Shown here piece by piece: positions 2,919 to 20,969 of a DNA stretch of 25,550 nucleotides. The translations under genes were made by a program, and so were the position numbers. Below the pieces are notes generated by a model. It saw only the letters and a list, made by a program, of their open reading frames with translations. It searched no databases and was not told the origin of the DNA. The stretch is from IMG/VR virus record IMGVR_UViG_3300040781_000285, positions 1 through 25,550 of that record; one strand, 5' to 3'. Source of the DNA: a virus. Each line of letters opens with the position of its first letter. Positions within the stretch are counted from its first letter, which is position 1.

Positions 2919-3482
2919 ATGATACAATATCATAATTACCTATCCAACCCCACAGATACAAATGCAACGCTTCTTTATAAAGCATTAGATGTACCAATTA
3001 AGAAGGTCGTCTACTCAATGATGAAGAAGCACAGTTGCTACGTATCTGAGGCACGGATGGAGGAAATAATACATGATATGAAGAGTAAGTTCTTTGAGTA
3101 TCATTTAGATAAGAAGGGTGCTAAGGTTGTTAATATAAACGCCTACATCCACCTACTCTTTAAGAAGGTAGTTTGGTCGAGACAGTATAAAATAGATGAT
3201 GAGAAGAGATATAATATAGAAGATCAATACAACCTAGTAGCACCTAATAAAGAAAAACCCACACCAATAGAAGAATTACCAAATGAACTCAAAGATATGG
3301 ATAATGGACCTATAATTTATATAGCTCTATCTAAGGGGTGGAGTTATAAGAAAACATTCCTATTCTTAGAGGAGAATTGTGGTGTTAGTAGGAAGTTTAT
3401 AAGGGATAATGCAGAGATATTGATAAAAATAAAGAAGGTTTTGAATTATAAGAATTATACCCAATGGAAGAATAAAAGATGA
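2919..3482 (+). CDS. Putative sigma-factor-like transcription protein
   Basis: This 187-aa protein has the two-part layout of small phage or ECF-like sigma factors. Residues about 18-95 look like region 2: a helical segment L-Y-K-A-L-D-V-P-I-K-K-V-V, a segment with E-E-I-I-H-D-M-K-S-K-F-F-E-Y, then N-I-N-A-Y-I-H-L-L-F-K-K. A linker of about 35 residues follows, then residues about 130-175 look like a helix-turn-helix region 4 (S-Y-K-K-T-F-L-F-L and V-S-R-K-F-I-R-D-N-A). If real, it would redirect host RNA polymerase to phage promoters, and the TGGCTATATA elements here are natural candidates. No good Shine-Dalgarno precedes the ATG, so translation may be coupled to the HNH gene ending 5 bp upstream. 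A generic HTH regulator is the alternative; the assignment rests on pattern only. Confidence 0.5.
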   Translation: MIQYHNYLSNPTDTNATLLYKALDVPIKKVVYSMMKKHSCYVSEARMEEIIHDMKSKFFEYHLDKKGAKVVNINAYIHLLFKKVVWSRQYKIDDEKRYNIEDQYNLVAPNKEKPTPIEELPNELKDMDNGPIIYIALSKGWSYKKTFLFLEENCGVSRKFIRDNAEILIKIKKVLNYKNYTQWKNKR

Positions 3483-3643
3483 AAAGAATAACTATAACAG
3501 AAGTAGAAGATGAATTAAAACAAGTATTTAAAGAAACTTGCCTAGAAGATGGTCTAACTATGTCTCAGGTATTAAGAGCTTTAATGAAATGGTATATATT
3601 AGAAAATAATAAGGATGTCAGAAATGAGAAAAATAAAAGATAG
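3479..3643 (+). CDS. Small ribbon-helix-helix (CopG/Arc-like) regulator
   Basis: A 54-aa reading frame starts at ATG 3479, overlapping the stop of the sigma-like gene in an ATGA arrangement that implies translational coupling. It begins M-K-R-I-T-I-T-E-V-E-D-E-L-K, then has T-M-S-Q-V-L-R-A-L-M-K-W-Y-I. A short basic strand followed by two amphipathic helices joined through a T-M-S turn is the classic ribbon-helix-helix fold of CopG/Arc-type repressors, which bind short palindromes as dimers. Its length is normal for the family. The 3' end overlaps the start of the following HNH gene by about 20 bp, so the HNH gene probably inserted at this edge. Its target is unknown; the palindrome AAGTATACTT in the promoters is one speculative candidate. 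Confidence 0.6.
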   Translation: MKRITITEVEDELKQVFKETCLEDGLTMSQVLRALMKWYILENNKDVRNEKNKR

Positions 3644-4079
3644 TAGTATCATCTATGATGGTATAGTGTGGAGCTTACACGATGGATATTATGATAATAC
3701 TATAAATGGCAAACTCCATAGATATATATGGGAACAGTATAATGGCCCAATACCAACTGGTTTTGTTATTCACCATAAAGATGAAGATAAATTAAATTAT
3801 AGTATTGAAAATTTAATAATGATGACAGTTGCCGAACACATATCACACCATCATAAGAATAAAGTTGTTTCTAAAAAAACTTGTATAAAAATATCAGAAG
3901 CACATAAGGGAATGAAAACTTATGATAGAGATGATACACATAAATTACTAATGAGTAAGAAAAAGACTAAATATAAAGAAGGTGACGTTTGGAAAAACTG
4001 TAATGGTTGGTATACAAAAGTAAATGGAAAGATAAAATATATTAAAAAAAGTGAGGTAATATGTCAAGAGAAACGATAA
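3624..4079 (+). CDS. HNH endonuclease (HNH_3-like, free-standing)
   Basis: This 151-aa protein starts at ATG 3624, which has AAGGA 8 bp upstream; an in-frame ATG at 3615 lacks a properly spaced site. The N-terminus has D-G-I-V-W-S-L, a small strand module common before HNH cores. The core contains L-H-R-Y-I-W-E, V-I-H-H-K-D (the catalytic His-His pair), N-L-x-L/I around E-N-L-I-M-M and A-E-H-I-S-H-H-H. The basic C-terminal third (many Lys, plus G-W-Y-T-K-V) is probably DNA-binding. Its frame overlaps the ribbon-helix-helix gene at the front and the winged-helix-like gene at the back by 19 bp, as expected for a mobile endonuclease lodged between two regulators. Confidence 0.82.
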   Translation: MRKIKDSSIIYDGIVWSLHDGYYDNTINGKLHRYIWEQYNGPIPTGFVIHHKDEDKLNYSIENLIMMTVAEHISHHHKNKVVSKKTCIKISEAHKGMKTYDRDDTHKLLMSKKKTKYKEGDVWKNCNGWYTKVNGKIKYIKKSEVICQEKR

Positions 4080-4396
4080 TACAAGGAATAGCTAATACAA
4101 CTAGATCACCAATGAGTGCAGCTATTATGGCAAACCTAATTGCACAGTTGAGTAATGAGGAAACTGCAATAGTAAGAGAGAATGCATTCATGTGGTTTAA
4201 ACCCAATATCAAATGGATGTGTAAGAATACTAATTTGAAAGAAGCAGCCATCTATAGTATATTAAATTTATTAAAAAAGTTTGGTTTTATAGAGAAGGCT
4301 ATTGATGGGGGTGTTTTGTTTGTTGCTATAAACTTTGAAAAACTAGAGGAATTAAATGTACAAGAAGATACCAATGAAGAAGAAAAAACCAGTTGA
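4061..4396 (+). CDS. Winged-helix-like DNA-binding protein
   Basis: This is a 111-aa protein. Residues about 45-95 read as a winged helix-turn-helix: W-F-K-P-N-I-K-W-M, then L-K-E-A-A-I-Y-S-I-L-N-L-L-K-K-F-G-F-I-E, then a wing G-G-V-L-F-V-A-I-N-F. The pattern of recognition helix, L-K-K-x-G-F-I and beta wing is shared by many phage replication-initiation and regulatory proteins. The N-terminal 40 residues are helical and the C-terminus is an acidic tail. The start has GAGG 4 bp upstream and overlaps the preceding HNH gene; the 3' end overlaps the next HNH gene by 41 bp. It could be a transcriptional regulator or, less likely, a small terminase subunit, since none is recognised elsewhere. The family is uncertain. 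Confidence 0.5.
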   Translation: MSRETIIQGIANTTRSPMSAAIMANLIAQLSNEETAIVRENAFMWFKPNIKWMCKNTNLKEAAIYSILNLLKKFGFIEKAIDGGVLFVAINFEKLEELNVQEDTNEEEKTS

Positions 4397-4727
4397 GACG
4401 GATGAAGCTAAGATAAAGAGAAACTTTAGAGCATCTAAGGTTTGGAAGGAATTTCGTCTATCTTTTATTAAAGAATATGATGCAAGGTGTTCTTGTTGTG
4501 GTGTAAAGAAATATGGTAAGGAAAGAAGAGCTCTTCAACTTCACCATCATAATGATGATATTAAAACGTACAAAGATGTACATAATAGGGAAAACTTTAC
4601 TCTACTATGTGCGGGGTGTCATAAGTTGGTTGAACGCTTCCTTAGTAGAAGAAAGGGTGAGTTTGATATCGATGACTGGTTTATTAAGTTTAAGAAAGTA
4701 TATGAAGCTAGTAGGAGGGGAAAATGA
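4356..4727 (+). CDS. HNH endonuclease with two-CxxC zinc site
   Basis: This 123-aa HNH nuclease is of the zinc-ribbon type. It has C45-x2-C48, then L-H-H-H-N (about 62-66) with the catalytic histidines, H-N-R-E-N-F (about 76-81), and C85-x2-C88-H89. Unlike the two homing-type HNH proteins nearby it has no NUMOD-like modules. Such small HNH proteins encoded next to the large terminase are, in several phages, partners of the terminase during DNA packaging, so a packaging role is as likely as a selfish one. GAGGA lies 5 bp before the ATG at 4356; a second in-frame ATG at 4374 is possible. The stop overlaps the next start by 4 bp. Confidence 0.82.
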   Translation: MYKKIPMKKKKPVETDEAKIKRNFRASKVWKEFRLSFIKEYDARCSCCGVKKYGKERRALQLHHHNDDIKTYKDVHNRENFTLLCAGCHKLVERFLSRRKGEFDIDDWFIKFKKVYEASRRGK

Positions 4728-5022: not shown

Positions 5023-5052
5023 AGTCCACTCATCCAAGTGGACTTTTTTTTT
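5023..5052 (+). terminator. Rho-independent terminator
   Basis: AGTCCACT (5023-5030) and AGTGGACT (5037-5044) form a perfect 8-bp stem with a 6-nt loop, followed by an uninterrupted T-tract to 5052. It separates the helicase/regulator block from the terminase transcription unit, and the terminase promoter element begins 7 bp downstream. Confidence 0.88.
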
Positions 5053-5058
5053 ATCACT

Positions 5059-5098
5059 AAAGTATACTTTATATCATCTCAATGGCTATATAGATAAA
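5059..5098 (+). promoter_or_regulatory. Bipartite phage promoter element, copy 1 (terminase unit)
   Basis: AAAGTATACTT (5059-5069) is followed after 13 bp by TGGCTATATAGATAAA (5083-5098). The same two boxes at the same spacing recur at 11045 and 19452. Reading TATATA as a -10 element leaves 17 bp to ATACTT as a -35 element, which is normal sigma geometry although the -35 is not the TTGACA type. The first box contains the perfect palindrome AAGTATACTT, so it could also be an operator or activator site. It lies between a terminator and the terminase Shine-Dalgarno at 5113-5118. Promoter function is inferred from recurrence and position. Confidence 0.72.
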
Positions 5099-5123
5099 CA
5101 GTACAAAACAATAGGAGGTTTTC

Positions 5124-6731
5124 ATGGCTAAAACAGCTAAACAAATGGCAGCAGCTAAAAAAAACTTACAACAGAAGGGACAACCCTCCAATTCACCAGG
5201 TCGACCTAAGGGTTCTGGCTATGGAACATTTGCCCAAGAATTATTTAAAGATAGCTTAGCTCATCCAACAAGGTATAAGAATAAAACTGTACCATTCGTT
5301 ACTGCTTATATGCAAGAAGTGCAGTCATCCGCTTTAAAAGGGGGATGGGCTGCAAAAATGTTCTTTGAACGTTTATTTGATGATGATATATTAGAGAAGA
5401 TAGATAGAGAACTTAATAAGAGTAAGAGGGAAGATGCAGACTTTCAGTCTTATAGGATATATAAATTAGGTCATGACTACCAGCAAAGAGTTTTATCTTC
5501 TATGAATAAGAGAATATATAACATGGCTGGTCGTAGAGCGGGTAAGTCTGAAACTAATATATTAAAAGCAGTAGATGTTATGACATCTAAGGATGATGGT
5601 AAGGTACTTATTATCGGTCTAACTCATACTACAACTGTCGATCTATATTTTAATGCAGTAGTTAAACTGATAGAGGAATTAGGTTGGGAGATAGAGAAGA
5701 AGAGTAGAACTGAAGGACTAATTGCAATTGGTGAAAGAGAGATACACTTTAAGGGTAATAGTTCTATTGATGAGAGAGAGAAGATAAGAGGTACAAAGTG
5801 GGATGTAGTAATTATAGATGAGGTTCAGTCTCAGAAAGGTTTGATATCCCTAATAGATAGTATAGTAGAACCTACACTATTGGATAGAGATGGACAATTA
5901 ATACTAACGGGTACGGGTCCGAGAGTAAGAGGAACATACTGGGAAACACTTTGGACACAGGATAATGGAGCACTTAAATTAAACTGGAACATCACAGACA
6001 ACCCCTTCATACCAAACTATAAGGAAGTATTAGATAAGATCAAAGAAGATAAGGGACTTACCGATACTTCACCTCTATATGTGAGGGAGTATTTAGGTCA
6101 GATATCATATGATGATGATGCTTTAGTATATAGACTGGAGGATGACAATTTCATAGTAGAACAGGAAATGTTAAACTGGATGGCTACACAACCCGTAACA
6201 GATGTACAATTTAGTGCAGGTTTAGACTATGGTTTTGATGATGCAGATGGTTTTGCCATCGTTATGTATTCCATCTCTAACCCCTCAAGAAAGTATTTGG
6301 TATATGAGTATAAGGGTAGAAGAACGGGAGTAACAGAGTTGGTTGATGCTATTAAGGCGGGAATTGAATATATAAATACCGATCCTAAGTTTGCCAACCT
6401 AACCAACAAAGACTTTAATATATTTGCAGATACTGCGGGTGGAATTAAGAAGATATCATTTGAACTATCTACACAACACAACCTCCCCGTATTAGATGCA
6501 TACAAAGCTAATAAAGACTTTGGTATAGAACAGTTACAGGAAGATGTAAGAAAGAGAAACTTTAAGGTTATTAAGGGAGGAGTGTTTGAAAATGAAGCCT
6601 TAAAAACTATATTTAAGAGGGATGAATTGGACAACCTAACTAGAACAGTAGATGATACAGCCTTTCACCCAGATATGTTGGATGCAGTACTTTATGCACT
6701 CCGTCCGATATATATGTTTAGTAACAATTAA
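5124..6731 (+). CDS. terL: Terminase large subunit
   Basis: This 535-aa protein is the packaging motor and headful/cutting nuclease. Its ATPase half shows A-G-R-R-A-G-K-S as Walker A (135-142), V-V-I-I-D-E as Walker B with the catalytic Glu (228-233), and L-T-G-T-G as the coupling motif (261-265). The RNase H-like nuclease half shows G-L-D-Y-G (Asp 368), F-A-D-T-A-G (Asp 436) and H-P-D-M-L-D-A (Asp 517 and 520), the expected metal-binding acidic set. An extra N-terminal part of about 100 residues carries S-P-G-R-P-K-G-S, a motif seen at the N-terminus of small terminase-like proteins. No separate small subunit is recognised nearby. AGGAGG at 5113-5118 sets the start, and the gene follows a dedicated promoter element. 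Confidence 0.95.
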   Translation: MAKTAKQMAAAKKNLQQKGQPSNSPGRPKGSGYGTFAQELFKDSLAHPTRYKNKTVPFVTAYMQEVQSSALKGGWAAKMFFERLFDDDILEKIDRELNKSKREDADFQSYRIYKLGHDYQQRVLSSMNKRIYNMAGRRAGKSETNILKAVDVMTSKDDGKVLIIGLTHTTTVDLYFNAVVKLIEELGWEIEKKSRTEGLIAIGEREIHFKGNSSIDEREKIRGTKWDVVIIDEVQSQKGLISLIDSIVEPTLLDRDGQLILTGTGPRVRGTYWETLWTQDNGALKLNWNITDNPFIPNYKEVLDKIKEDKGLTDTSPLYVREYLGQISYDDDALVYRLEDDNFIVEQEMLNWMATQPVTDVQFSAGLDYGFDDADGFAIVMYSISNPSRKYLVYEYKGRRTGVTELVDAIKAGIEYINTDPKFANLTNKDFNIFADTAGGIKKISFELSTQHNLPVLDAYKANKDFGIEQLQEDVRKRNFKVIKGGVFENEALKTIFKRDELDNLTRTVDDTAFHPDMLDAVLYALRPIYMFSNN

Positions 6732-6738
6732 ATATTCT

Positions 6739-6779
6739 CGAAAAGACTATGTTTTCGGTGGCTATATATTATAGAGAGG
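6739..6779 (+). promoter_or_regulatory. TGGCTATATA element with upstream hairpin (portal unit)
   Basis: TGGCTATATATTATAGA begins at 6759 and closely matches the copy at 8997 through the following AGG. The upstream AAAGTATACTT box of the other promoters is absent. Instead CGAAAA (6739-6744) and TTTTCG (6752-6757) form a 6-bp hairpin just before it. A start about 7 bp past TATATA would fall next to the AGGAG at 6777-6781, giving a very short leader. It may be a second promoter class or an RNA-processing site between terminase and portal genes. Confidence 0.55.
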
Positions 6780-6787
6780 AGAAATAA

Positions 6788-7036
6788 ATGTTTAATAAAA
6801 ACAAGATACCTAAAGAAGCTTTGGCCAAAATAGTAGAGGTGTATGAACAAGCAGCTAAGCAGCAAGCTAAGTACGACCTCCTAGTTGAGCAACCTCTTAA
6901 GTATGAATTCCTTGAGCAGATGATAAACAATGCTACTCAGGGTGTAATGATGGAAGTAACCATGACAGATGGTACTAAGATAAAAATAAAGCCTATGACA
7001 CAATTTGATGCATATGCTGATGGCAAAGACTATTAA
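6788..7036 (+). CDS. Hypothetical protein, 82 aa
   Basis: This small protein lies between the terminase and portal genes. Residues 1-45 look helical and rich in Ala, Gln and Lys; residues 50-70 look like two beta strands (M-M-E-V-T-M then K-I-K-I-K). AGGAG lies 6 bp before the start. The stop is 12 bp before the portal start, and both are driven by the element at 6759. Small proteins at this position in podoviruses are often head-assembly factors, but none is recognised by sequence here. Confidence 0.6.
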   Translation: MFNKNKIPKEALAKIVEVYEQAAKQQAKYDLLVEQPLKYEFLEQMINNATQGVMMEVTMTDGTKIKIKPMTQFDAYADGKDY

Positions 7037-7048
7037 GGAGAATGGTAA

Positions 7049-8950
7049 ATGTTGAATAAGAAAACAATAGCAAGTGATATTGATATGCTAAACAACCATT
7101 TCAGTACTAGAGAAGATAAGTATCGTAGAAACTTCAACCGATATACTTCAAATGGTGCAAGGTCTGAAAACATCTGGAAGAAGAGGGTAAAACCTTATGT
7201 TTATTCAAGAAAGTTTAATATGTTTGATAAGGAAACTAAAACTCCCGTATTTAATGTTATACGATCTTCTGTAAATACAATTCATTCTAAAATGTCTCAG
7301 ACTAAAGTAAGACCTTTCTTCAACCCAATAAATGGACTATACAAAACACAGCAGGTTTGCCGTAATGCACAAACTTTCTTTGATGAATACTTTGATAAAG
7401 AGGGAATTTATTCTCTTGGAAACCAGGCTATTAAAGATGCTATGATATTTGAGTATGGTGCGCTTTGGGTTGATGAAGATGCTATGGAAATTAAGCTTAT
7501 TAAACCCTGGGAATACTACTACGACCCAGCAGAATTACAAGAACAGAAGATAACAAGATGTTATATCAGAAAGAAGGAATATCCTATAAGACTTCTTAAA
7601 GATGTTATATCTAATAGAAAGAAGGAACACAGAGAACTATTCAACTTACTTAAGGAACAACCACTATCATTGGTAAATTATGTTATTTATTACGACCTTG
7701 AGGGTGGCAAGAAGTATCATATTATAAATGGTAACTTTGTTTCTGAGAAAAGTATAGAATATACAATTCCACCAGTCATCATGCTTTGGTATGAAGATCC
7801 AATAAAGTCGGGACAGTCTACTTCTTTGGTAGATAACCTATATGATATTCAGAGAGCAATTGACCTCTCATCTAATAAGATATATAGTGCAGCAGAATTA
7901 TCACCTTCAAACTCTATATTTGTACCTAGAGGTTCTAATATTAAAGCATCTATGGTTTCAAATGAAGCGGGTAATATATATGAGTATCAACCCCTTCCAA
8001 GTGGTGGAAACCCAATACAAGTTTCAACTCCCGGTTTTATTGATCCTTCATACATAAACTTACTTGAAATGACTATTCAGTTTGCATATAATATGGAGGG
8101 TATATCAGAACTATCCGCTCAGAGTAAAAAACCTTCTGGCTTAGATAGTGGTGTTGCACTTCAGACTATGGAAGATATAGAGAGTGAGAGACACAACGTT
8201 TTACTCCAAAACTATATTCGCTTTATGATGGGTGTTGCTATCAGAGTTATTGAGATATTCGATGACAATGACAACATTCTACCTAAGAAACTTGGTCGAT
8301 CTGATATTAAGTGGAAACAGTTGAAAGATGAGAAGGAAAACTTCTCTATACAATTCTCTGCATCCTCTTCTCTATCTAAAGACCCTAAAGTTAAAATGGA
8401 ACAAATTGAGAAACTTAATAGTATGGGACTTATTGATCCGGCAACTATTAGTTCTCTCCTTGAATTCCCCGATCTACAGAATGCATACTCTATATCTGCT
8501 GCTGCTTATGACCAATGTTATAAGATAATTGAGAGAGCGGTAGAGGATGAAAACTATGAGTTCTTTGAGATAGTTGATCTTAATATGTTGTATAGACAGA
8601 TCATAAATACTATGATGAGACTTGATAGTGCGGATGAAGACCCTAAAATTGTAAACAGACTTACTGTATTACTTATTAAGGTTAAAAACCAGATCGATCA
8701 GATCAACAATACAATTATGGAACAGCAAGCTCCTCCAGCGGAAGAACCATTACCAGAAGATGTTGGTATGGAAGAATTACCTCCTGAAGTTGATGAGTTT
8801 GGTAACCCAATTGTAGCAGAAGAAATGGGAGCAGCACCAACAGACTTAAATGGTATGCCAATTCCAGAACAAGCAGCAGTATTACCCGGTGGAACACCCG
8901 CTGGAATGCCAAGTGGGATGACACCCGAACAATTAATGGGTGGCATGTAA
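7049..8950 (+). CDS. Portal protein
   Basis: This 633-aa protein would form the dodecameric ring at the packaging vertex, through which DNA enters and leaves and to which the tail adaptor binds. Identification rests on its place between terminase and scaffold/capsid, its length, and podovirus-portal-like segments: N-V-I-R-S-S-V-N-T with a following M-S-Q-T-K-V-R-P near residue 80, a helical Y-D-I-Q-R-A-I-D-L-S stretch, and a stem/wing region with S-G-L-D-S-G-V-A-L-Q-T-M-E-D. The last 70 or so residues are Pro-, Glu-, Gly- and Met-rich and probably disordered, ending in G-G-M. AAGGAG at 7035-7040 precedes the start. The exact family is not assigned. Confidence 0.87.
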   Translation: MLNKKTIASDIDMLNNHFSTREDKYRRNFNRYTSNGARSENIWKKRVKPYVYSRKFNMFDKETKTPVFNVIRSSVNTIHSKMSQTKVRPFFNPINGLYKTQQVCRNAQTFFDEYFDKEGIYSLGNQAIKDAMIFEYGALWVDEDAMEIKLIKPWEYYYDPAELQEQKITRCYIRKKEYPIRLLKDVISNRKKEHRELFNLLKEQPLSLVNYVIYYDLEGGKKYHIINGNFVSEKSIEYTIPPVIMLWYEDPIKSGQSTSLVDNLYDIQRAIDLSSNKIYSAAELSPSNSIFVPRGSNIKASMVSNEAGNIYEYQPLPSGGNPIQVSTPGFIDPSYINLLEMTIQFAYNMEGISELSAQSKKPSGLDSGVALQTMEDIESERHNVLLQNYIRFMMGVAIRVIEIFDDNDNILPKKLGRSDIKWKQLKDEKENFSIQFSASSSLSKDPKVKMEQIEKLNSMGLIDPATISSLLEFPDLQNAYSISAAAYDQCYKIIERAVEDENYEFFEIVDLNMLYRQIINTMMRLDSADEDPKIVNRLTVLLIKVKNQIDQINNTIMEQQAPPAEEPLPEDVGMEELPPEVDEFGNPIVAEEMGAAPTDLNGMPIPEQAAVLPGGTPAGMPSGMTPEQLMGGM

Positions 8951-8954
8951 CAGT

Positions 8955-8975
8955 AAAAAAACCTCATAGAGGTTT
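8955..8975 (-). terminator. Hairpin that reads as a terminator on the minus strand
   Basis: AAACCTC (8959-8965) and GAGGTTT (8969-8975) form a 7-bp stem with a 3-nt loop. On the + strand only three Ts follow, but the A-run at 8955-8961 becomes a U-tract on the minus strand. The strong direction is therefore antisense, although no gene is seen on that strand. It may also act weakly on the + strand or fold as a processing signal behind the portal gene. Confidence 0.5.
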
Positions 8976-8978
8976 AGG

Positions 8979-9017
8979 GCCACATAAGTTTTTCAGTGGC
9001 TATATATTATAGATAGG
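8979..9017 (+). promoter_or_regulatory. TGGCTATATA element with overlapping inverted repeat (scaffold/capsid unit)
   Basis: TGGCTATATATTATAGA starts at 8997 and ends in the Shine-Dalgarno of the next gene (AGGAG 9015-9019). An inverted repeat GCCAC (8979-8983)/GTGGC (8996-9000) overlaps its first bases. As with the copy at 6759 there is no AAAGTATACTT box 24 bp upstream. It sits at the boundary before the scaffold and capsid genes, whose products are needed in large amounts. Promoter versus processing site is undecided. Confidence 0.55.
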
Positions 9018-9025
9018 AGTAGACA

Positions 9026-9589
9026 ATGTACGAATTAGAGAATTTAGATGAGATGCAAAAAGATCAGCTACTTCAGGCACTTATCGCAGAAAGGGAGAAT
9101 GGATACGATATGGACAATATGAAACTAATGAAAGTTGTAGAACACTTAGCTACACGTATTGATAGTATGGAGAAGCTCTTCCTTGATGAATTTCTTGGTG
9201 GCATTGATGAGATGTATCAAGAGAATTTAAGAAAAAAAGATGTTGATGAATTAAGAGAACGCTATAGTGGTGACCTCGAACAGTTCATGGACCCCTACAA
9301 CAAAGCCTACGATACTGACATGATCGAAGACCTTCTTGATAGTCTTAATAGTGATAGAGATGGTTGGGATCGTGAAGATGAAGAGTGGGACAAAGAAAAA
9401 AGTCTTGAAGGTATGATCAAGATGATAAAAGAGAGAATGGGCGGAATAATGGGACTACCCGGTGTAGAAGCTGCATCCGTATCACTCGATCCTTCAGAAG
9501 CATTAGAAGATGCTATTGGAGAAAAAGAAGACGATGAAGATCCAATGGACTTTGTCAAGAAATTAGCTAAAAAAGAAAAACGATATTAA
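9026..9589 (+). CDS. Scaffold-like head assembly protein
   Basis: This 187-aa, very acidic, helix-rich protein lies directly between portal and major capsid genes, the usual place for a scaffolding protein. Residues 1-75 have coiled-coil-like spacing. The middle is dominated by Asp and Glu (D-R-D-G-W-D-R-E-D-E-E-W-D), and the last ten residues are strongly basic (K-K-L-A-K-K-E-K-R-Y). A short basic C-terminal segment that contacts the capsid protein is typical of podovirus scaffolds. It would guide procapsid assembly and then leave. No protease motif is seen. The assignment comes from position and composition rather than a signature motif. Confidence 0.72.
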   Translation: MYELENLDEMQKDQLLQALIAERENGYDMDNMKLMKVVEHLATRIDSMEKLFLDEFLGGIDEMYQENLRKKDVDELRERYSGDLEQFMDPYNKAYDTDMIEDLLDSLNSDRDGWDREDEEWDKEKSLEGMIKMIKERMGGIMGLPGVEAASVSLDPSEALEDAIGEKEDDEDPMDFVKKLAKKEKRY

Positions 9590-9600
9590 GGAGATAATTT

Positions 9601-10986
9601 ATGGCTATTACAACTGATACTACCGGTTTAGGACAATTACTTAAAACTTGGTATACTGAAAAAGGTGTTGAAAACCTTTTATTTAGAAACTCACCCGTAC
9701 TGAAAGCAATTAGTAAGAGTAGAGTTGGTGGTGAAGAATATGCATTCGCATCTATGTATGGATCGGGTGGTAACATCACTGCATCACACACAAAAGCGGT
9801 AGCAAATGCTGCTTCGTCTGCTAGAAACGCACAGTTTAAGGTGGCTCCTGGTCAGCTATTTACTGCATACAATGTATCTAAGAAAGAAATTCTTGCTACC
9901 GAAAAGAACAAAGGTTCTTTCCTTAAAGCACAGACTTCTCGTTTCTTCGCTGCAAACGAAAACATTAGAAAGGGTCTTGCGGCTACTCTCTATGGTTTTG
10001 GTTATGGTGAAATTGGTAGAATTCAAGTTGCTGTTCCACAGGGTGGTACTTCATTCGTATTCAACGATGCTTCTATGGCTATCAAAATTGACGTTGGAAC
10101 TAAATTCCAAGTTACTGATGGTTCTACAGGTTCTCCTGGAGATGCTCTTCTTGGTACTACTTATACAGTTACTAAGGTTGATGGTCTTGCAGTAACATTT
10201 ACTCCTGCAGTTGTTGAAGCCGGTGGTTTCTCAGATGCTGGTTTTATTTGTTATGAGGGTGGACGTTCTGGTTCTACTCCTCTCTTCCCTCAGGGTCTTG
10301 CAGCTTGGGTACCTTCTATCGTTGCTGGTAGAACTGGTGCAGCTTGGGATGACTATATCTCAACTCCTTTCCATGGTGTTGATAGAAGTGTTGCTACTGA
10401 TAGACTTGCTGGTCAATATGTTCAGAGAGCAGCTGCTGAGAAATTTGCAGACGCTGTCGTTCGTGGTGTTCGAGCCGTTCGTAGAGCGGGTGGTGTACCT
10501 AACATGATCATCGTAAATGATGAAGACTATGCAACTATTATATCTGAGATCGAAGCTCAGACTAGCTACTGGCAGTCAACAAACTCTGGTGGAGATAGTA
10601 AGAAAAAGAATTCTGCTGCTAAAGGTATGGAAGAAGTTTCTTTCATGTTCTCTACTTCTTGGGTAAAAGATATATATGATGACCCATATTGCCCTAAGGG
10701 AACAGCTTACATCCTTGATATGGATGTTGTTGAGCTTATTTCTCTTGGTGGTGCACCTATGACAGACGATGGTATTTCTGGTAACAACCCTGGAACTCCT
10801 GATGTTGAGAGCGAAGGTGATGGACCTGGTACAAACTATGACCTTATGGTTGAAGACTACATCACTGTTAAAGATGGTGCGGATACTGATGATGGTCCTG
10901 CAATGGAAATTTCTATGCAGGTTTATGCAAACTTCGTAATTCATAATACTGCTCATGCATGTGTTATTGACTTTGATGCACCTTAA
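9601..10986 (+). CDS. Major capsid protein
   Basis: This 461-aa protein follows the scaffold and has an excellent AAGGAG site 7 bp upstream; a terminator lies immediately after it. The N-terminal region (T-W-Y-T-E-K-G-V-E-N-L-L-F-R-N-S-P, then K-A-I-S-K-S) resembles the N-arm and first domain of HK97-fold capsid proteins of podoviruses. The stretch S-S-A-R-N-A-Q-F-K-V and the later M-I-I-V-N-D-E-D-Y-A-T-I resemble the E-loop/P-domain and A-domain respectively. Residues about 390-425 are Gly- and Asp-rich and may form a surface loop. It uses more CGT and fewer AGA arginine codons than neighbouring genes, as expected for a highly expressed product. Fold assignment is by pattern; identity as capsid protein is strongly supported by context. 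Confidence 0.88.
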   Translation: MAITTDTTGLGQLLKTWYTEKGVENLLFRNSPVLKAISKSRVGGEEYAFASMYGSGGNITASHTKAVANAASSARNAQFKVAPGQLFTAYNVSKKEILATEKNKGSFLKAQTSRFFAANENIRKGLAATLYGFGYGEIGRIQVAVPQGGTSFVFNDASMAIKIDVGTKFQVTDGSTGSPGDALLGTTYTVTKVDGLAVTFTPAVVEAGGFSDAGFICYEGGRSGSTPLFPQGLAAWVPSIVAGRTGAAWDDYISTPFHGVDRSVATDRLAGQYVQRAAAEKFADAVVRGVRAVRRAGGVPNMIIVNDEDYATIISEIEAQTSYWQSTNSGGDSKKKNSAAKGMEEVSFMFSTSWVKDIYDDPYCPKGTAYILDMDVVELISLGGAPMTDDGISGNNPGTPDVESEGDGPGTNYDLMVEDYITVKDGADTDDGPAMEISMQVYANFVIHNTAHACVIDFDAP

Positions 10987-11012
10987 GTATAAACAAATAT
11001 TTAATACTATTT

Positions 11013-11040
11013 AAAAAAGAGAGCTTCGGCTCTCTTTTTT
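11013..11040 (+). terminator. UUCG-loop rho-independent terminator, probably bidirectional
   Basis: A 6-bp core GAGAGC/GCTCTC around a TTCG tetraloop is extended by an A-run upstream and a T-run downstream, giving up to 12 bp of pairing (11013-11024 with 11029-11040). C(UUCG)G is an exceptionally stable loop, and the A- and T-runs would allow termination on either strand. It ends the capsid transcript and lies 4 bp before the next promoter element. Confidence 0.92.
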
Positions 11041-11044
11041 TTAT

Positions 11045-11084
11045 AAAGTATACTTAATAAAATACTAGTGGCTATATAGATAAA
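11045..11084 (+). promoter_or_regulatory. Bipartite phage promoter element, copy 2 (tail unit)
   Basis: AAAGTATACTT (11045-11055), 13 bp, then TGGCTATATAGATAAA (11069-11084). The downstream box is identical over 16 bp to copy 1 at 5083, and the spacing between boxes is the same, while the 13-bp spacer differs in most positions. It lies between the capsid terminator and the AGGAGG (11091-11096) of the first tail-region gene. A predicted start near 11085 would give a leader of about 18 nt. Confidence 0.75.
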
Positions 11085-13599: not shown

Positions 13600-14909
13600 A
13601 GGCATCTGAATTAAACAAGAGAGCCAGAAGCTTAGCTGACTTACCAAACTCAGAATTTATTACTTATGATGATGAGAAGAACTCACTAAATGAAGCATGG
13701 AGAAATATCTACGCTCATATTACTGACAATGATGATGACTATTTCATAGAGACTAAAGAGTATGCAATGCAAGATGGAGTTACAGATGATGCTTATACGT
13801 TTGAGTTTGAACTACCAACAAACATGTATAAACTCAGAACTGTAGACTATAAAGATGGTGATGTTTGGACTACTATGGATAAGTTTTCTCTATCTGAAAG
13901 AAATAGAGCGGGAGCACCTAAATACCGTTTTAAGGCGGACAAACTTTGGATACAGTCTTCAAGGAGTTGGCCAACTATTAAGATAACATACTATCCACCT
14001 CCAGAAACTATACAACTTCCCGATGTTAAGGTTGCATTCAACCAAGACTTATCTGAAGTATATTCTATTTGGGATGAGTGGGCAGTAAAAGATAGTTCAA
14101 CTGTAATTCAGGGTAGTGAAACTAGTATTACTCTATACAATGAGAATAGTACTACTCCAGAAGTAATATATAGTGGTGGAACTGATATAAGCTTTCCACT
14201 ATATTACAAAAACAATATACTATTTGTAGATGGTAACTCACTTATGAAACTTAAACCAGATGGTAGTGCTATTGAATTGGTAGATGACATTGATGTATCA
14301 ACATACCGACCCTCAATAGTAAGAGATGTATATTACTATGTAAATATTGGACAAACTGAAACTAAGTCTTACAACTTAAAGACGGGTGTAGTAAAAACAT
14401 TCGATGCATCCCTCCTTTACGACTGCCCCTATATTAGTGTGACTGGTCAGAGATATTACCTCTCAACTAACGTATATGGTATTACATCACTGCAAAAGAA
14501 TGGTGATGTGATAGTAACTGCCGGAGTTGAGATGTTTTCCTACCCATTCTTCTCTGTAGATCAGATCATTTACAGACTAGATGAAGATGATAATTTTACT
14601 GAATGGGGTGAGGGTTCTTTAGGGTATAATAGTACAAACCATATAATTACAGGAACTCCAGAGAATGGTTCTGTAAATACTATTGGTAATTCAGATGATA
14701 CGGATATAGAATACCCACTTAATATAGTGCCAACAATAATTGCATACAGTGCCGCAATTGACTATACAAGAAAAGCACAGGGTGATCCAACTCTTATTAA
14801 GACGAGGTTGTCTGAGCTTTGGATGGAAATGGCAGAGACTATGAGAAGGGATGACTATAAACCAGAGAGAGTAAATAACGAATATAGTAATAACTTAAGG
14901 GGATACTAA
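13596..14909 (+). CDS. Head-tail adaptor with a propeller-like insertion
   Basis: This is a 437-aa protein. Residues 1-140 look like a podovirus adaptor: helical L-N-K-R-A-R-S-L-A-D-L, then Y-D-D-E-K-N-S-L-N-E-A-W-R-N-I-Y, then strands ending I-K-I-T-Y-Y-P-P-P. Residues about 372-430 look like the matching C-terminal helices (L-N-I-V-P-T-I-I-A-Y, A-I-D-Y-T-R-K-A, L-S-E-L-W-M-E-M-A-E-T-M). Ordinary adaptors of this kind join these parts directly and are roughly 200 residues long. Here about 220 residues lie between, made of roughly 40-residue strand-rich units (near 162, 198, 238, 278 and 316) with a recurring Y-Y or L-Y pattern, like blades of a small propeller. It would bind the portal and carry the nozzle, whose gene starts at its last base. 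Confidence 0.7.
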   Translation: MKASELNKRARSLADLPNSEFITYDDEKNSLNEAWRNIYAHITDNDDDYFIETKEYAMQDGVTDDAYTFEFELPTNMYKLRTVDYKDGDVWTTMDKFSLSERNRAGAPKYRFKADKLWIQSSRSWPTIKITYYPPPETIQLPDVKVAFNQDLSEVYSIWDEWAVKDSSTVIQGSETSITLYNENSTTPEVIYSGGTDISFPLYYKNNILFVDGNSLMKLKPDGSAIELVDDIDVSTYRPSIVRDVYYYVNIGQTETKSYNLKTGVVKTFDASLLYDCPYISVTGQRYYLSTNVYGITSLQKNGDVIVTAGVEMFSYPFFSVDQIIYRLDEDDNFTEWGEGSLGYNSTNHIITGTPENGSVNTIGNSDDTDIEYPLNIVPTIIAYSAAIDYTRKAQGDPTLIKTRLSELWMEMAETMRRDDYKPERVNNEYSNNLRGY

Positions 14910-17900
14910 TGAACAGGATAGATATAAACCTCCTAAAGAGTATCGATACTGATACTATTGACCAACAGGTTAAGAAGTTTGGCGAAGATGCTGCAGCCAT
15001 CCATAATACGGGTATTGAAAGAGATGGGGGTATCACAAACCTCTATAGAACAGAAGTAGTTTCTACTACAGATACTATCGACTATACTAATGATGGGCAG
15101 AAGATAACTACTACTATAACCGGTGAAACTAGAAATATCTTCATCAATGATAAGAAGATCGGTGAAGTTGATGCTCGTGGTATAGAGTTTAAGTTGGAAA
15201 TTGAAGGTACTGAGGATGTAGTATTAGATAGTGCGGGTAATTATATAACATTAAATTATGCAGAAAAAGTTATAACAGTAACTCAATATGATACAAACAA
15301 TATTATATTACAAAGTAGAGATATTTTATTTAATGATATTGGTGACGACGATGTTGCCACCTCAATATCGTTCATACATCGGGATAATATGGACTTTGAT
15401 ACTGAATACGAGTTTATTTTCAGGTCTGGTAATACTGCTTATTTATTGAGAGAAGCTGGTAAAAACCCCGAAGAAGATGTTATAACATTAAGAAGCAGTG
15501 AGTATTATAGTGCAGCAGTATATGAAGGTGCGGTTGTTGTTGTTGATGATACTGGCTTAAGTTCATGGGATGGTACGGCTTGGAAATATGCTGATGGTAC
15601 GGGTGCGGGTACGGGTTTATATTCTAACGATGTAAGAACTCAGGGTGAAGATGTTATAATTCGTTCTGATGGTGGTTTTTTAATAGTTGAAAAAACACAA
15701 GGTACCGGGCTGGGTATACACTCTTATGATGGAACTAACTGGAAGTGGGGTGATGGAACTGGTACAGGTACAGGACCTTATTATTTTTCGAATGATGTGA
15801 GAAGAATTGTAAAGTATGGAGATCAATGGGTTGGTTATCAAATATATCCAGATGGTGTTGCAAACTGGGATCCTGTTGGTGGATGGACGAAAGGTAATGG
15901 CGGTGGTGCAGGACTGCAACCCTATGCGTTAATAAATAATGTTGATAAAGTTGTAGCAGATAATGATAGTAATATGTTATATGTTGAAGGAGAACCTGCA
16001 GGTTCTAATTATAGTGGCTTATATTCATTTGATGGAACGGCTTGGAAAAACCCCGATGGTACTGGAACTGGTACAGGACCTTATTGGTTTGGACCACAAT
16101 ACACGACTACAAAAGATATGATAATGCACAAAGGTACTTTAGTAATATCTGCATCTTATTATAAGTCTTCAACTGAAAATGGTTTTAGAGTTTTATCTTG
16201 GGATGGAACGGCTTGGAAGTATTATGATGGTACTGGAACTGGTACAGGACCTTATTATAATTATATTATCAATGATAATGATAGCCCCATTGAAAGATAC
16301 CAATTTTTCCTAAACTTTAATAATGGAACATCAGAGCAGTTGCTAATGTATCAAGACCAAAATATTAAAATTTCTTCTTGGGATGGAACAGCTTGGAAAT
16401 TTTTTGATGGAACTGGAGCGGGTACGGGTATACACTTTGATCTATCAACCTCTTATGTTGTAGAAAATATATCACTAGCTCTACTTAATTTTAATAATGA
16501 TATATTTTCTCTTGGTGCCCACTCAACATCTTATTACAAGGGTGTAGATGAGTATTGGTATCAGTTGTTTAATGATCAGAGAGTAATATTACAAACTAGT
16601 TCTAGTTCTGGCTTTAGTGGTATATTTTTTACTCATGGCTGGAATGGAATGTTAGTTTATGGTACCTCTGGAGGTATTTTTTCTTATGATGGAGCAAACT
16701 GGAAGTGGCCCGATGGTTCAGGAAGTGGTACAGGACCTTATAGTAGCTATATATTAAGCTGTAGGCGGGCGGTTAGTTATAGTGGTGACTTGATAGTTTC
16801 GTCAGAAGGTGGTATTTCGTCTTATGATGGAACTAACTGGAAGTATTATGATGGTACTGGAACTGGTACTGGTCTACATTATACACAAGATGACTTAAGC
16901 CAAACTACCCAGCAAAGTTTAGCCGGTTTATTGGTAATACCTGGAAATAGACTTGTTTTTTTAGGGTTTTTAGGTGATGTATCAACTTATAAAGATGGTA
17001 TATTATATAAATATGATGGTACAAACTCTGGTCCCGGAACTAATGCTCCATTTGGTCAAAGTGTAATTCCCAATAGTTCATGGCCTGTAAGTATAAAATG
17101 GAGAGATCAAGATAACACATTATTACTTACCGGTAGGAACGGCCTTGACAGTACTTGGGACTTGGCATCTGGTGGTAATGATCCGGTAAATGGCTGGGCG
17201 TGGACATTAGGTGATGGAACTTATATAAATGATGGTAAAGCTGAATGGTTGCACTTTAAGGGTGATAATGGTATAGACAGTATTGTTCCAATGGATGATA
17301 TAAGTGGTACTGTAGTTTTTCTACAGGATGATGGAGTTTTCTCTTATGATGGGGCTAATTGGAAATATGCTGATGGTACTGGAACTGGTACAGGACCTTA
17401 TGGAACCAAAGCTGATATAGGGACTACGGGAAACCTTAGTAAAGCGGTGAAGCTTAATAATAAGGTTGTTGTATTTACTTATAATGATGCATACGTATCT
17501 AATGGCGGTAATAGTTGGACTGCTATTGGTAACAAGACTGTAGAATACAGTAGTGTAGATGTTATAGAAAATAAGATACACGCTACAATTTATGGACAAT
17601 TTTTAGCCTATGTAACAGTAGATGAAGAGGGCATATACCGGAATGAAACATATTTAGATGAAGCACTAAGAATAAATATACCAATTAAGAGTAATGAATT
17701 AAACTCTGTTTATTGTTATAAATATGAGAATGGTAAATATATATTGGGAGTACCAGGTAACTCAAGACAGTTATATAGTTCACTCGACCAAGGTTTTAAT
17801 ATTGTTGAAGATATAAACTGTGAGTGGGCAATTCCTCAAACATATAGTGGTTTTACTAGACATGTTCTAACAAATACGGCCAATGCTGATACTATAACAT

Positions 17901-19753
17901 CTACTGAATTGAATAACTTGGGACATATTGGTTATGTCGACTTTAATACAAATTTTAGTGACAAGGTAATATGGTCTAATAATGGTGGCATGGATATTAC
18001 AGCACTACTCCATGAAAATAGTATATCTGGCTATGGTTATGTTGAAGCTATCTTTAAGGATGCAAGTGCGGATATTTATACGTCATATTCACCACTTTTT
18101 AATAGTTCATCATCTAATGCTATCTTATTAAAGTCTCAAACCGATACAAATATAAGTGCATATGGTAAGCTGACAAATGGTCCTGGAACTACTGCAGCAA
18201 ACAACTTAGAGTTTAGGAATAACTTTATTTCCAGTGTTCAGGGTTATCTCTCTGTTGGCATTATAGATGGTTCTGGAGATGATAATGTAGGTACTCTTAT
18301 TTCAGATGTTGGACAGTTTGACCCCGGTTGGACACCCTACTTTGATGATGATAAAATTATCTATAGATATAAAGGTAAGTATTATTATGTGAAAATTGGT
18401 ACTGATATTGGTAATATAATTCAGAGTGTAGATGATAGAGTACTTAAGATAAATACCATCCATCCTCTAAACCTTATTGATACTGTAGAAGAAGAATTGG
18501 AAGTTGGTTCTATAGACTTTAATGGTAGAACACTATATACATCTACTGGCTCTGTTGCAACAACCAAAACTGCACTAGCATCTCGTTTCTCAGGAGACTT
18601 TAGTAACTCTATTGATGTTGGAAGTAAGTTGATAGCTATTGATGGTTTTAATGCATCTAATTTTGAATTGGTTGGTGTTGGAATACCAAATGTGACAAAT
18701 ATTTTAAGCAACTATATTATAGATACCTTCTATGATAACAGTTATTTTGTATCAACATTATCAGATGGTTCGGAAGTAATTGATGCTACAAAACTTAATA
18801 CTATATACTTAGAAGATGAAAGTCTTCCACCCTCTCTTGGTGCTATATATAATGATGGTGTTGCAGTGTCAGGTTCTAATACGGTTGTACTAGATGATGG
18901 GAAAGATGTATACATGTTGGCGAATACTTTATCGGGTGAGTACAAGTTCTTTGAATTGTATGGACAACTCTATGCGTTTGATGGACTATACATCTACTTG
19001 ATAAGTAAAACTAATGGCACTATATCCACTCCTGTTAAGACAGCAGTTGCTACCGGTTTGGAATATATAGCTACTACACCAATTGAAACCTACTTTAAGA
19101 GTAAGTTTGATAACTCACTATTCATCTTCTCTGGTGGTAGAAACTTAAGTAAAGCAAAACGTTTCTCTAAAGTAGATAAACTAAAAGATGGAGTATACTC
19201 GGTAATGGAGAATACTTTGTGGTTGGATACTGAAGGTGATAGGGTTTATACAACCAGAGATAGTATTATATCTGAAATTGTTAAACCAGATGAAAGTATA
19301 CTTAATACCTACAATACAGTGAATGGTATACTTTTCAAAGTAAAACCAACTGGGGGTGTAGATACAGTATACAACTACAACTTTAGTAATGAAGGTGAGG
19401 TTGTACCTCTTAAATATCAAACGGCTTATTATGGTCTTGGTACTAATAGCAAAAGTATACTTAAAGAGTATGTGGTGGCTATATATAATGAATTAAAAGA
19501 AAACATTAGTGTAAAATTATCTGTGTCATCTTTCGATGAGCAGAGTTACGATAGTGTTGATAAGCTATTTAATTTAAGTGCTAAAGACTATGATAGGAAT
19601 GGTTATGCAACTATCCGGATACAACCGGGTAATGCAAAAGCTTTAGGTTCCTCTCTTACAATAGAGAGTGAAAATAAAATAGTAATAAGTTCTGTATCGG
19701 CTGAGTTTGCTCAAGCGGGTAAGGGAACAATATCAACACAGAGGAGTAGATAA
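14909..19753 (+). CDS. Large tail nozzle/hub protein with internal DG-W-K repeats
   Basis: This 1614-aa protein is the largest in the window. The N-terminus (I-D-Q-Q-V-K-K-F-G, then G-I-E-R-D-G-G-I-T-N-L-Y) resembles the opening of podovirus tail-nozzle or tail-stabilising proteins. The C-terminal domain of about 120 residues (A-Y-Y-G-L-G, Y-V-V-A-I-Y-N, V-K-L-S-V, Y-A-T-I-R-I-Q-P, S-L-T-I-E-S) resembles their closing beta-sandwich. Between lie many strand-rich units; residues about 218-831 hold eight good and several degraded copies of a 21-residue repeat with D-G-x-x-W-K and D-G-T-G-T-G. It follows the adaptor by position, as a nozzle should, but is much longer than usual, so extra domains may bind receptors or fibres. 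A promoter element lies inside its 3' end. Confidence 0.68.
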   Translation: MNRIDINLLKSIDTDTIDQQVKKFGEDAAAIHNTGIERDGGITNLYRTEVVSTTDTIDYTNDGQKITTTITGETRNIFINDKKIGEVDARGIEFKLEIEGTEDVVLDSAGNYITLNYAEKVITVTQYDTNNIILQSRDILFNDIGDDDVATSISFIHRDNMDFDTEYEFIFRSGNTAYLLREAGKNPEEDVITLRSSEYYSAAVYEGAVVVVDDTGLSSWDGTAWKYADGTGAGTGLYSNDVRTQGEDVIIRSDGGFLIVEKTQGTGLGIHSYDGTNWKWGDGTGTGTGPYYFSNDVRRIVKYGDQWVGYQIYPDGVANWDPVGGWTKGNGGGAGLQPYALINNVDKVVADNDSNMLYVEGEPAGSNYSGLYSFDGTAWKNPDGTGTGTGPYWFGPQYTTTKDMIMHKGTLVISASYYKSSTENGFRVLSWDGTAWKYYDGTGTGTGPYYNYIINDNDSPIERYQFFLNFNNGTSEQLLMYQDQNIKISSWDGTAWKFFDGTGAGTGIHFDLSTSYVVENISLALLNFNNDIFSLGAHSTSYYKGVDEYWYQLFNDQRVILQTSSSSGFSGIFFTHGWNGMLVYGTSGGIFSYDGANWKWPDGSGSGTGPYSSYILSCRRAVSYSGDLIVSSEGGISSYDGTNWKYYDGTGTGTGLHYTQDDLSQTTQQSLAGLLVIPGNRLVFLGFLGDVSTYKDGILYKYDGTNSGPGTNAPFGQSVIPNSSWPVSIKWRDQDNTLLLTGRNGLDSTWDLASGGNDPVNGWAWTLGDGTYINDGKAEWLHFKGDNGIDSIVPMDDISGTVVFLQDDGVFSYDGANWKYADGTGTGTGPYGTKADIGTTGNLSKAVKLNNKVVVFTYNDAYVSNGGNSWTAIGNKTVEYSSVDVIENKIHATIYGQFLAYVTVDEEGIYRNETYLDEALRINIPIKSNELNSVYCYKYENGKYILGVPGNSRQLYSSLDQGFNIVEDINCEWAIPQTYSGFTRHVLTNTANADTITSTELNNLGHIGYVDFNTNFSDKVIWSNNGGMDITALLHENSISGYGYVEAIFKDASADIYTSYSPLFNSSSSNAILLKSQTDTNISAYGKLTNGPGTTAANNLEFRNNFISSVQGYLSVGIIDGSGDDNVGTLISDVGQFDPGWTPYFDDDKIIYRYKGKYYYVKIGTDIGNIIQSVDDRVLKINTIHPLNLIDTVEEELEVGSIDFNGRTLYTSTGSVATTKTALASRFSGDFSNSIDVGSKLIAIDGFNASNFELVGVGIPNVTNILSNYIIDTFYDNSYFVSTLSDGSEVIDATKLNTIYLEDESLPPSLGAIYNDGVAVSGSNTVVLDDGKDVYMLANTLSGEYKFFELYGQLYAFDGLYIYLISKTNGTISTPVKTAVATGLEYIATTPIETYFKSKFDNSLFIFSGGRNLSKAKRFSKVDKLKDGVYSVMENTLWLDTEGDRVYTTRDSIISEIVKPDESILNTYNTVNGILFKVKPTGGVDTVYNYNFSNEGEVVPLKYQTAYYGLGTNSKSILKEYVVAIYNELKENISVKLSVSSFDEQSYDSVDKLFNLSAKDYDRNGYATIRIQPGNAKALGSSLTIESENKIVISSVSAEFAQAGKGTISTQRSR
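15560..17401 (+). repeat. Interspersed 63-bp (21-residue) repeats in the nozzle gene
   Basis: Clear copies start at 15560, 15719, 16022, 16193, 16373, 16679, 16817 and 17339; degraded ones are near 15845 and 17006. The consensus is S-[W/Y/F]-D-G-[T/A]-x-W-K-x-x-D-G-[T/S]-G-x-G-T-G-[P/L/I]-[Y/H]. Spacers of about 35-80 variable residues separate most copies, as expected for one loop-and-strand motif per propeller blade. Copies at 16022, 16193 and 17339 share an identical 30-bp 3' end, which shows recent sequence exchange. Confidence 0.88.
19452..19485 (+). promoter_or_regulatory. Bipartite promoter element, copy 3, inside the nozzle gene
   Basis: AAAGTATACTT (19452-19462), 13 bp, then TGGCTATATA (19476-19485): the same boxes and spacing as at 5059 and 11045. 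It lies within codons for S-K-S-I-L-K and V-V-A-I-Y-N of the nozzle gene, about 270 bp before the first internal-protein gene. A start near 19492 would give a leader of about 260 nt and independent transcription of the genes from 19754 onward. The downstream GATAAA extension of copies 1 and 2 is not kept. Confidence 0.62.
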
Positions 19754-20662
19754 ATGGGTTTATTTGGTAATTTATTTGGCGGAGAAGATAGAAAGAAAGG
19801 TGCTGCGACACAAGCTCAGGCTGCCAAACATATAGAAGCGGGAAGTAAAGCTGCCGGTGTTGCTGGTACTGCTGCTAGACAAAGAGCGGGTCAAATGGGT
19901 GCTCAGGCGGATCAATATGCTGCTCGAACTCAGGCAGATATGGGTTCAAGTGCTGCAGACTTTATGAAAAAGCAGGATGCTGCTGCTTCACAGAGTGCTG
20001 GAAGAGAAGCTCAAACCGCTACTACAGGAGCAACAAGACAAGCTCTTAAAGCTGCAAAGACCGCCGGACTTACTGGTGGTCAGAGTGCTTTATTGGCAGG
20101 AAGAGGAGCTGCGGATACTTATTCGGGAGCTCTTCAGAAAGGTATGGATACGGGACGTAGTAGATATGGACAGGCAACTCAGCTTGGTATGCAGCAAGGT
20201 TCTGATCTAGCGGGTAGAGAAGCAACAGCACGTGGTCAGCAGATCAGTGCAGCCGGTACTCAAACGGGAGCGGGTTCTGCTTTATCTCAACAGGGTGCTG
20301 CTCAACAGCAAGCTGGAAACCAGAAGCAGTCAAACATGTTTAGTGGTATTGGTTCTGTATTAGGTGGAGTTGGTGCTTTATTCTCAGATGAAAACCTTAA
20401 GAAAGATATAACAGAAATTGATAGTAAAAGAAGTTCAATTGATGAACTTATTGCAAAAGTAAGACCCGTATCATATCATTACAAAGATGAAGATGATAGT
20501 GAGCAGAAACATGAAGGTGTTATTGCTCAAGAACTAGAAAGTACAAAGCTTGGTAAAGGTGCAGTTGGTGATAGTAAAATGGGTAAATTTATTTCAACTG
20601 ATGAACTTAAACCAATTCTTATTGATCTTGTTAGAGAGTTGAATAAGAGAGCGGGGGCATAA
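19754..20662 (+). CDS. Probable internal virion protein with C-terminal S74-like chaperone domain
   Basis: This 302-aa protein begins M-G-L-F-G-N-L-F-G-G and is then dominated by Ala, Gln and Gly in helical stretches (residues 15-195), as in ejection proteins of podoviruses. A Gly-rich hydrophobic segment (G-S-V-L-G-G-V-G-A-L) leads to F-S-D-E-N-L-K-K-D-I at 210-219, then V-R-P-V-S-Y-H-Y and G-V-I-A-Q-E-L-E. This is the core of the peptidase S74 intramolecular chaperone family, in which the Ser (here 211) marks the self-cleavage site in characterised members. The family usually caps trimeric fibres, so its presence on an internal-type protein is notable. GAGGAG precedes the ATG, and the start abuts the nozzle stop. 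Confidence 0.72.
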   Translation: MGLFGNLFGGEDRKKGAATQAQAAKHIEAGSKAAGVAGTAARQRAGQMGAQADQYAARTQADMGSSAADFMKKQDAAASQSAGREAQTATTGATRQALKAAKTAGLTGGQSALLAGRGAADTYSGALQKGMDTGRSRYGQATQLGMQQGSDLAGREATARGQQISAAGTQTGAGSALSQQGAAQQQAGNQKQSNMFSGIGSVLGGVGALFSDENLKKDITEIDSKRSSIDELIAKVRPVSYHYKDEDDSEQKHEGVIAQELESTKLGKGAVGDSKMGKFISTDELKPILIDLVRELNKRAGA

Positions 20663-20663
20663 C

Positions 20664-20969
20664 ATGGAAAATAGTAGTTGGGGACCACTTATACAAGATG
20701 TATTAAAACAAGCAATGGATAGCGAAGCAGTTCCTGGTGGAGAACCGGGTACTGATACTTTGAGTACAGCACAACCAACTGATATAGCAGCTCAAACCCG
20801 AGAGGGTGATGGTGCTATATTTTCTGATGAAAATTTAAAGAAGAATATTTCACCTAGAATTGATAGTGATGCTGAATATGAAACAGTTATGTTAAATTAT
20901 TTACTACGTGCTATTAAAGAGGTTGATGAACTTAAGAGAGAGAACAAAAGACTTAAAGGAGAACTATAA
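20664..20969 (+). CDS. Small protein with shortened S74-like tail
   Basis: In this 101-aa protein the first half is acidic and low in structure (V-P-G-G-E-P-G-T-D-T). The second half starts F-S-D-E-N-L-K-K-N-I at 53-62, matching the signature in the preceding protein, but the central strand part (V-R-P-V-x-Y-H-Y, G-V-I-A-Q-E) is missing. The C-terminal helix L-L-R-A-I-K-E-V-D-E-L-K-R-E-N-K-R-L-K resembles the closing coiled coil of S74 domains. It starts one base after the preceding stop, so translation is likely coupled; only a G-run serves as a binding site. It may be a reduced partner or decoy of the upstream domain. Function is unknown. Confidence 0.68.
   Translation: MENSSWGPLIQDVLKQAMDSEAVPGGEPGTDTLSTAQPTDIAAQTREGDGAIFSDENLKKNISPRIDSDAEYETVMLNYLLRAIKEVDELKRENKRLKGEL

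Follow-up and report, generated by a model that had tools for sequence, protein, structure and literature searches.

Which polymerase, and with which specificity factor, would read a two-part DNA element that recurs among the structural genes of a virus? The stretch analyzed here (IMG/VR record IMGVR_UViG_3300040781_000285, a genome fragment of 25,550 bases, hereafter the window) carries such an element three times, as AAAGTATACTT-N13-TGGCTATATA. We consider it probable that the copies form a late promoter class, recognized by the core of the host RNA polymerase together with a phage-encoded sigma-like protein of the extracytoplasmic function (ECF) type, the product of the open reading frame (ORF) at 2919 to 3482. 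From sequence comparison with relatives we strongly infer that the elements are promoters, while the sigma-like protein is moderately supported as their reader, by its predicted fold.

The element in the window

The first-pass annotation of the window, made from its letters alone, had described two half-sites exactly 13 bp apart with differing spacers, and a scan recovers them as exact matches on the plus strand at 5059 to 5092, 11045 to 11078, and 19452 to 19485 (sites 1 to 3). No match occurred in 100 shuffled sequences, the control which that annotation had proposed, and no fourth site appeared in the window when up to three mismatches were allowed. Its reading of the two halves also holds: ATACTT and TATATA are 17 bp apart, the −35 position lies in a perfect 10-bp palindrome (AAGTATACTT), and ATACTT is atypical, agreeing with TTGACA at 1 of 6 positions (TATATA agrees with TATAAT at 4 of 6). 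A search of Rfam gave zero matches.

As had been noted, sites 1 and 2 have a terminator on one side and a Shine-Dalgarno sequence on the other. Each is preceded by an intrinsic terminator, a strong plus-strand hairpin with a T-run (5023 to 5052 and, after the capsid gene, 11013 to 11043; −11.2 and −15.3 kcal/mol, z about −5.3), and followed by an AGGAGG, that of the terminase gene (5124) after site 1 and that of the gene at 11103 after site 2. A point missing from the first-pass annotation is that site 3 lies inside an ORF of 1,614 amino acids (14909 to 19753), about 270 bp before the gene at 19754.

The downstream half is also found alone. All five copies of TGGCTATATA in the window are on the plus strand, and the two outside the bipartite sites, neither of them mentioned before, lack the upstream half: one (6759 to 6768) lies just before the gene at 6788 and the other (8997 to 9006) just before the gene at 9026, the latter with core-only equivalents after the portal gene in several relatives. 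Such copies, within operons and adjoining Shine-Dalgarno sequences, would suit elements that are not promoters, such as operators or sites of RNA processing or packaging. However, the bipartite copies follow terminators, precede gene groups, keep a promoter-like fixed spacing, and occupy one strand only, and we regard a nonpromoter role as very improbable. The upstream half has a fourth copy as well, at 19293, without a partner core; it belongs to a cluster of six GTATAC within 600 bases (18908 to 19460) near site 3, of which no counterpart was found in the relatives.

Position, spacing, and core letters in relatives

The exact motif had no match in other viral contigs, and relatives were therefore sought through the capsid, portal, and terminase proteins. 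These searches yielded uncultured IMG/VR relatives, read whole or in part (records G001 to G021), with terminases 34 to 64% identical to that of the window. The first single-protein searches, with the terminase and with the primase, had returned nothing; against phage records, the capsid protein found no match and the terminase one weak match, and searches of bacterial genomes with both found no relative.

At the homologous places the relatives carry GTATACNN-N13(12)-nnnCTATA. In G001 the copy before the terminase gene is GTATACTC-N13-TTACTAAACA, the one after the capsid gene GTATACTC-N13-TTACTAATAA, and the one inside the large gene GTATACTT-N13-TTACTATATT. All three places are occupied in G006 and G017 too, the copies after the capsid gene and within the large gene are found in G004 and G012, and the capsid copy is found in G007 and L041 (G003/G004 and G007/G008 being counted together for this site). 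The spacer has 12 bases in two of the G006 sites. In a test of spacing over 25 relatives (488 kb, the window left out), GTATAC and CTATA on the strand of the late genes were separated by a gap of 18 at 10 sites and of 17 at 2, with at most 2 sites at any other gap; the opposite strand had no pair at gaps 17 and 18, and Markov sequences gave a mean of 0.27 and a maximum of 3 pairs at gap 18. The relatives share kinship, so these sites are not independent events, although the DNA flanking them has diverged.

The three bases before CTATA vary in another manner, being mostly uniform within one genome and different between genomes. The triplet is TGG in the window, TTA in G001, TAA in G006 and G017, ATA in G007 and G012, TGA in L041, and ACA in G010; that of G004 is mixed (TCC, TCA). 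Upstream of genes, 36 within-genome pairs of triplets agree, against a mean of 7.6 and a maximum of 22 in 5,000 shuffles. Such lineage-specific triplets are expected if the reader is encoded by the phage and its specificity drifts. Together with the conservation of position, spacing, and strand, these core letters support the first-pass view of a phage-specific promoter class that divides the structural genes.

That annotation had left the choice between a phage-specific sigma factor and an activator. Under the second option, promoters of the host housekeeping sigma factor would have their −35 replaced by the site of a MotA-like phage activator, with a winged-helix-like or a ribbon-helix-helix-like protein as the binder. 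Two small putative DNA-binding genes are indeed kept beside the sigma-like gene, GTATAC is palindromic, and the window has its hexamers at the 17-bp distance. The relatives speak against it: the G001 cores TTACTAAACA and TTACTAATAA are not TATAAT-like, a lineage-specific triplet before CTATA is unexpected under a host sigma factor, and the longer palindrome is not maintained (GAAGTATACTC, TTTGTATACAA, and GTAAACTT, the last being the terminase copy of G017). Because GTATAC alone has been retained, a dimer-type activator is less likely, and we judge the housekeeping reading as a whole unlikely. A phage sigma factor, for which the product of a conserved gene near the terminase is a candidate by its sigma-like predicted fold, is the better supported of the two options.

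The copy inside the large gene offers a view of the same element under coding constraint. The protein stretch SIL...(V)TIY that overlies it is conserved also outside the motif carriers. In all six carriers, SIL is spelled AGT-ATA-CTN, AGT making up 4 to 30% of their serine codons; the chance of AGT-ATA-CTY from the carriers' own codon usage is 0.005 to 0.053 each (G004 actually has CTG). At one position, 13 of 16 large-gene sequences, among them all five other carriers, have threonine (counted by eye; G009 has tyrosine and G015 serine). The window has alanine there, and its codon, GCT, is placed exactly where the TGG triplet requires it. Similarly, G012 has tyrosine (TAT, required by its ATA triplet) where other carriers have valine or isoleucine, and relatives without the motif elsewhere also lack it in the gene. 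We read this fit of codons and residues as selection on a DNA element within the gene.

A sigma-like protein as candidate reader

The CTATA core raises the possibility that a single-subunit phage RNA polymerase like that of T7 reads the element, since nnnCTATA fits the CACTATA core of T7 and SP6 promoters and the lineage-specific letters before it parallel the T7/T3/SP6 specificities. SP6/T7-like cores are present in G010 (GACACTATAT) and G019 (CAACTATAGAG), and several core-only sites near Shine-Dalgarno sequences would suit a start directly after CTATA. No gene for such an enzyme was found, however: RNA_pol (PF00940) had 0 matches in the window, a fragment, and in 21 records from relatives, a set with some near-identical members, and the T7 control was detected at an E value of 1e-109. 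Two of the motif-carrying relatives are informative here. When the end of each contig is joined to its start, a single frame runs through the join (1,881 amino acids in G017, 335 in G004), so that each contig probably represents a closed genome, about 31 kb in size. Neither has a match to a T7-type polymerase in the search that detected the T7 positive control nor, by inspection, an unassigned ORF of polymerase size. The conserved GTATAC also lies farther upstream than the footprint of a T7 promoter reaches. We consider promoters of a T7-like polymerase quite unlikely. The lack of such a gene in G004 and G017 makes the host polymerase the likely enzyme in these relatives, and we infer the same for the phage of the window.

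The candidate for directing the host enzyme is the protein of 187 amino acids encoded on the plus strand at 2919 to 3482, within about 1.7 kb upstream of the terminase gene, where 15 other records have a homologue too (a family of 16 members). Its AlphaFold model has a mean predicted local distance difference test (pLDDT) score of 80, and the first nine Foldseek matches of the model in the PDB are all sigma factors. With VIA-align, nearly all of 50 rows, judged by title, were either sigma factors or the sigma chains within transcription complexes, and the matches cover residues 1 to 104, which correspond to region 2. The best Z scores were 9.1 (root-mean-square deviation [rmsd], 8.8), 8.6 (rmsd, 2.5 over 90 residues), and 8.0 (rmsd, 3.2); the T4 gp55 complex 7d7c is among the matches, at 6.6. 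Named viral structural matches were also mostly sigma factors, that of Cronobacter phage GAP52 included.

At the sequence level, the family gave weak or chance matches only in Pfam, PHROGs, NCBIfam, and the PDB. The member of G020 came closest to Sigma70_r2 (13.8 bits, the cut-off being 24), one member matched that model below the cut-off with an E value of 7.6e-4 in a single-genome search, single members weakly reached sigma models of PHROGs (0.88) and NCBIfam (0.024), and the window protein had no match to Sigma70_r2. Other Sigma70_r2-like proteins exist in two relatives, both on the minus strand: L108:11634 to 12185 in G017 (24.3 bits) and L111:7535 to 7780 in G018 (15.5 bits). These matches, at or near the cut-off, come from additional proteins outside the conserved family.

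The closest likeness among known systems is with the late promoters of the Salmonella phage 7-11, GTAAtg-(16)-aCTA, which are read by the host core with the phage sigma factor SaPh711_gp47, an ECF-type protein of about 185 amino acids, transcription starting 6 to 9 bases from the element (PMC8948821). In both cases GTA.. and (a)CTA elements, about 16 to 17 bp apart and at near-fixed spacing, stand before late gene groups. In 7-11 a small phage-encoded sigma factor directs the host polymerase there, as the protein with the sigma-like predicted fold would do here. The differences are that the present elements have GTATAC instead of GTAAtg, a core extended to CTATA, and a spacer one base longer (GTATAC-(17)-aCTATA in the same notation), that the genomes are smaller (about 31 kb, against 90 kb), and that the sigma-like proteins lack recognizable sequence homology. 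By analogy, the present element would work like the 7-11 system, in a likeness of layout and not of established common descent.

Phage phiEco32 likewise has a sigma factor, gp36, with phage-specific middle and late promoters, and its single-element promoters resemble the core-only sites described above, but their consensus, tAATGTAtA, is unrelated (PMC8948821). Moreover, gp36 has no detectable similarity to the sigma-like family. In T4, a small phage protein with a sigma-like region 2 also guides the host core. The gp55-dependent late promoters of that phage consist of a −10 element alone (TATAAATA), in contrast to the second upstream element at fixed spacing found here.

Several observations weigh against a sigma-like reader. 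The predicted template modeling score of the AlphaFold model is 0.48, the Foldseek E values are individually weak (0.18 to 1.2), and VIA-align itself cautions that for helical bundles a Z score under about 13 may be commonplace. The C-terminal domain, modeled with a pLDDT of 81, had no clear region-4 match in the fold search. Profile comparison (hhalign) with 7-11 gp47 was not significant (rank 11 of 247, the first five being family members), and that with phiEco32 gp36 failed (rank 128). Several relatives have the sigma-like gene without a GTATAC element, and core-only sites stand very near the Shine-Dalgarno sequence in some relatives, where a start 6 bases past aCTA would fall on the first base of GGAG.

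Gene groups and implications

If the sigma-like protein is the reader, GTATAC would serve as a −35-like and nnnCTATA as a −10-like element, with the fixed spacer of 13 bp between AAAGTATACTT and TGGCTATATA, and both would be read by the host core carrying this protein. Its N-terminal region-2 domain would recognize CTATA, and its C-terminal domain, or a partner, GTATAC; transcription would begin a few bases past the core. Site 1 would then drive the genes of the terminase large subunit (5124 to 6731; PHROG phrog_2, E value of 1e-26), the portal protein (7049 to 8950; phrog_156, 6e-11), and the probable major capsid protein (9601 to 10986; assigned by position and conservation, without a family match), all on the plus strand. 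Site 2 would drive the tail-side genes beyond the capsid terminator, and site 3, within the preceding coding sequence, an S74-type gene and those after it.

The two small genes beside the sigma-like gene are candidates for binding GTATAC. The first (3479 to 3643, plus strand) appears ribbon-helix-helix-like from its translation read by eye, and similar small ORFs accompany the sigma-like gene in most relatives. The second, a winged-helix-like protein near the terminase (4061 to 4396, plus strand), has weak PHROG matches to a replication initiator and to DnaD, was aligned with relatives as a set of seven members, and may be a cofactor. Two HNH endonuclease genes and a third HNH-like ORF, recognized by eye, also flank the sigma-like gene or lie between it and the terminase (2443 to 2913, 3615 to 4079, and 4356 to 4727).

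The plus-strand ORF that contains site 3, a probable structural protein, has DGTGTGTGPY-like repeated units, and its homologue in G017 is interrupted by a contig break. Each of the three consecutive ORFs that follow (19754 to 21796) has an SDENLKKDI-like motif, with which the S74 chaperone domain begins. Repeat-rich, hypervariable-looking ORFs are also present in the relatives (L027 at the end of G004, L024/L025 in G002, L034/L035 in G011, and L102/L103 in G014), with the repeats GAGWG, SVWASVVASVGDSVRDSV, AAWAAAGAAAG, and AAYASA; both ends of the G004 contig fall in one such ORF.

Beyond the single record, we tentatively propose, at somewhat less than even confidence, an uncultured clade of phages of about 31 kb with a sigma family too diverged for sequence models, in which the −10 specificity has shifted in each lineage along with all its promoters, including the embedded one, where the structural protein has changed to follow. 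If true, this would suggest a function for a conserved near-terminase gene that standard family models miss, and amino acid changes would be the price of keeping a promoter within a coding sequence. These phages would then provide a natural set of retuned sigma/promoter pairs, the −10 triplet varying between relatives and being uniform within most of them, in which the evolution of promoter specificity would be directly testable.

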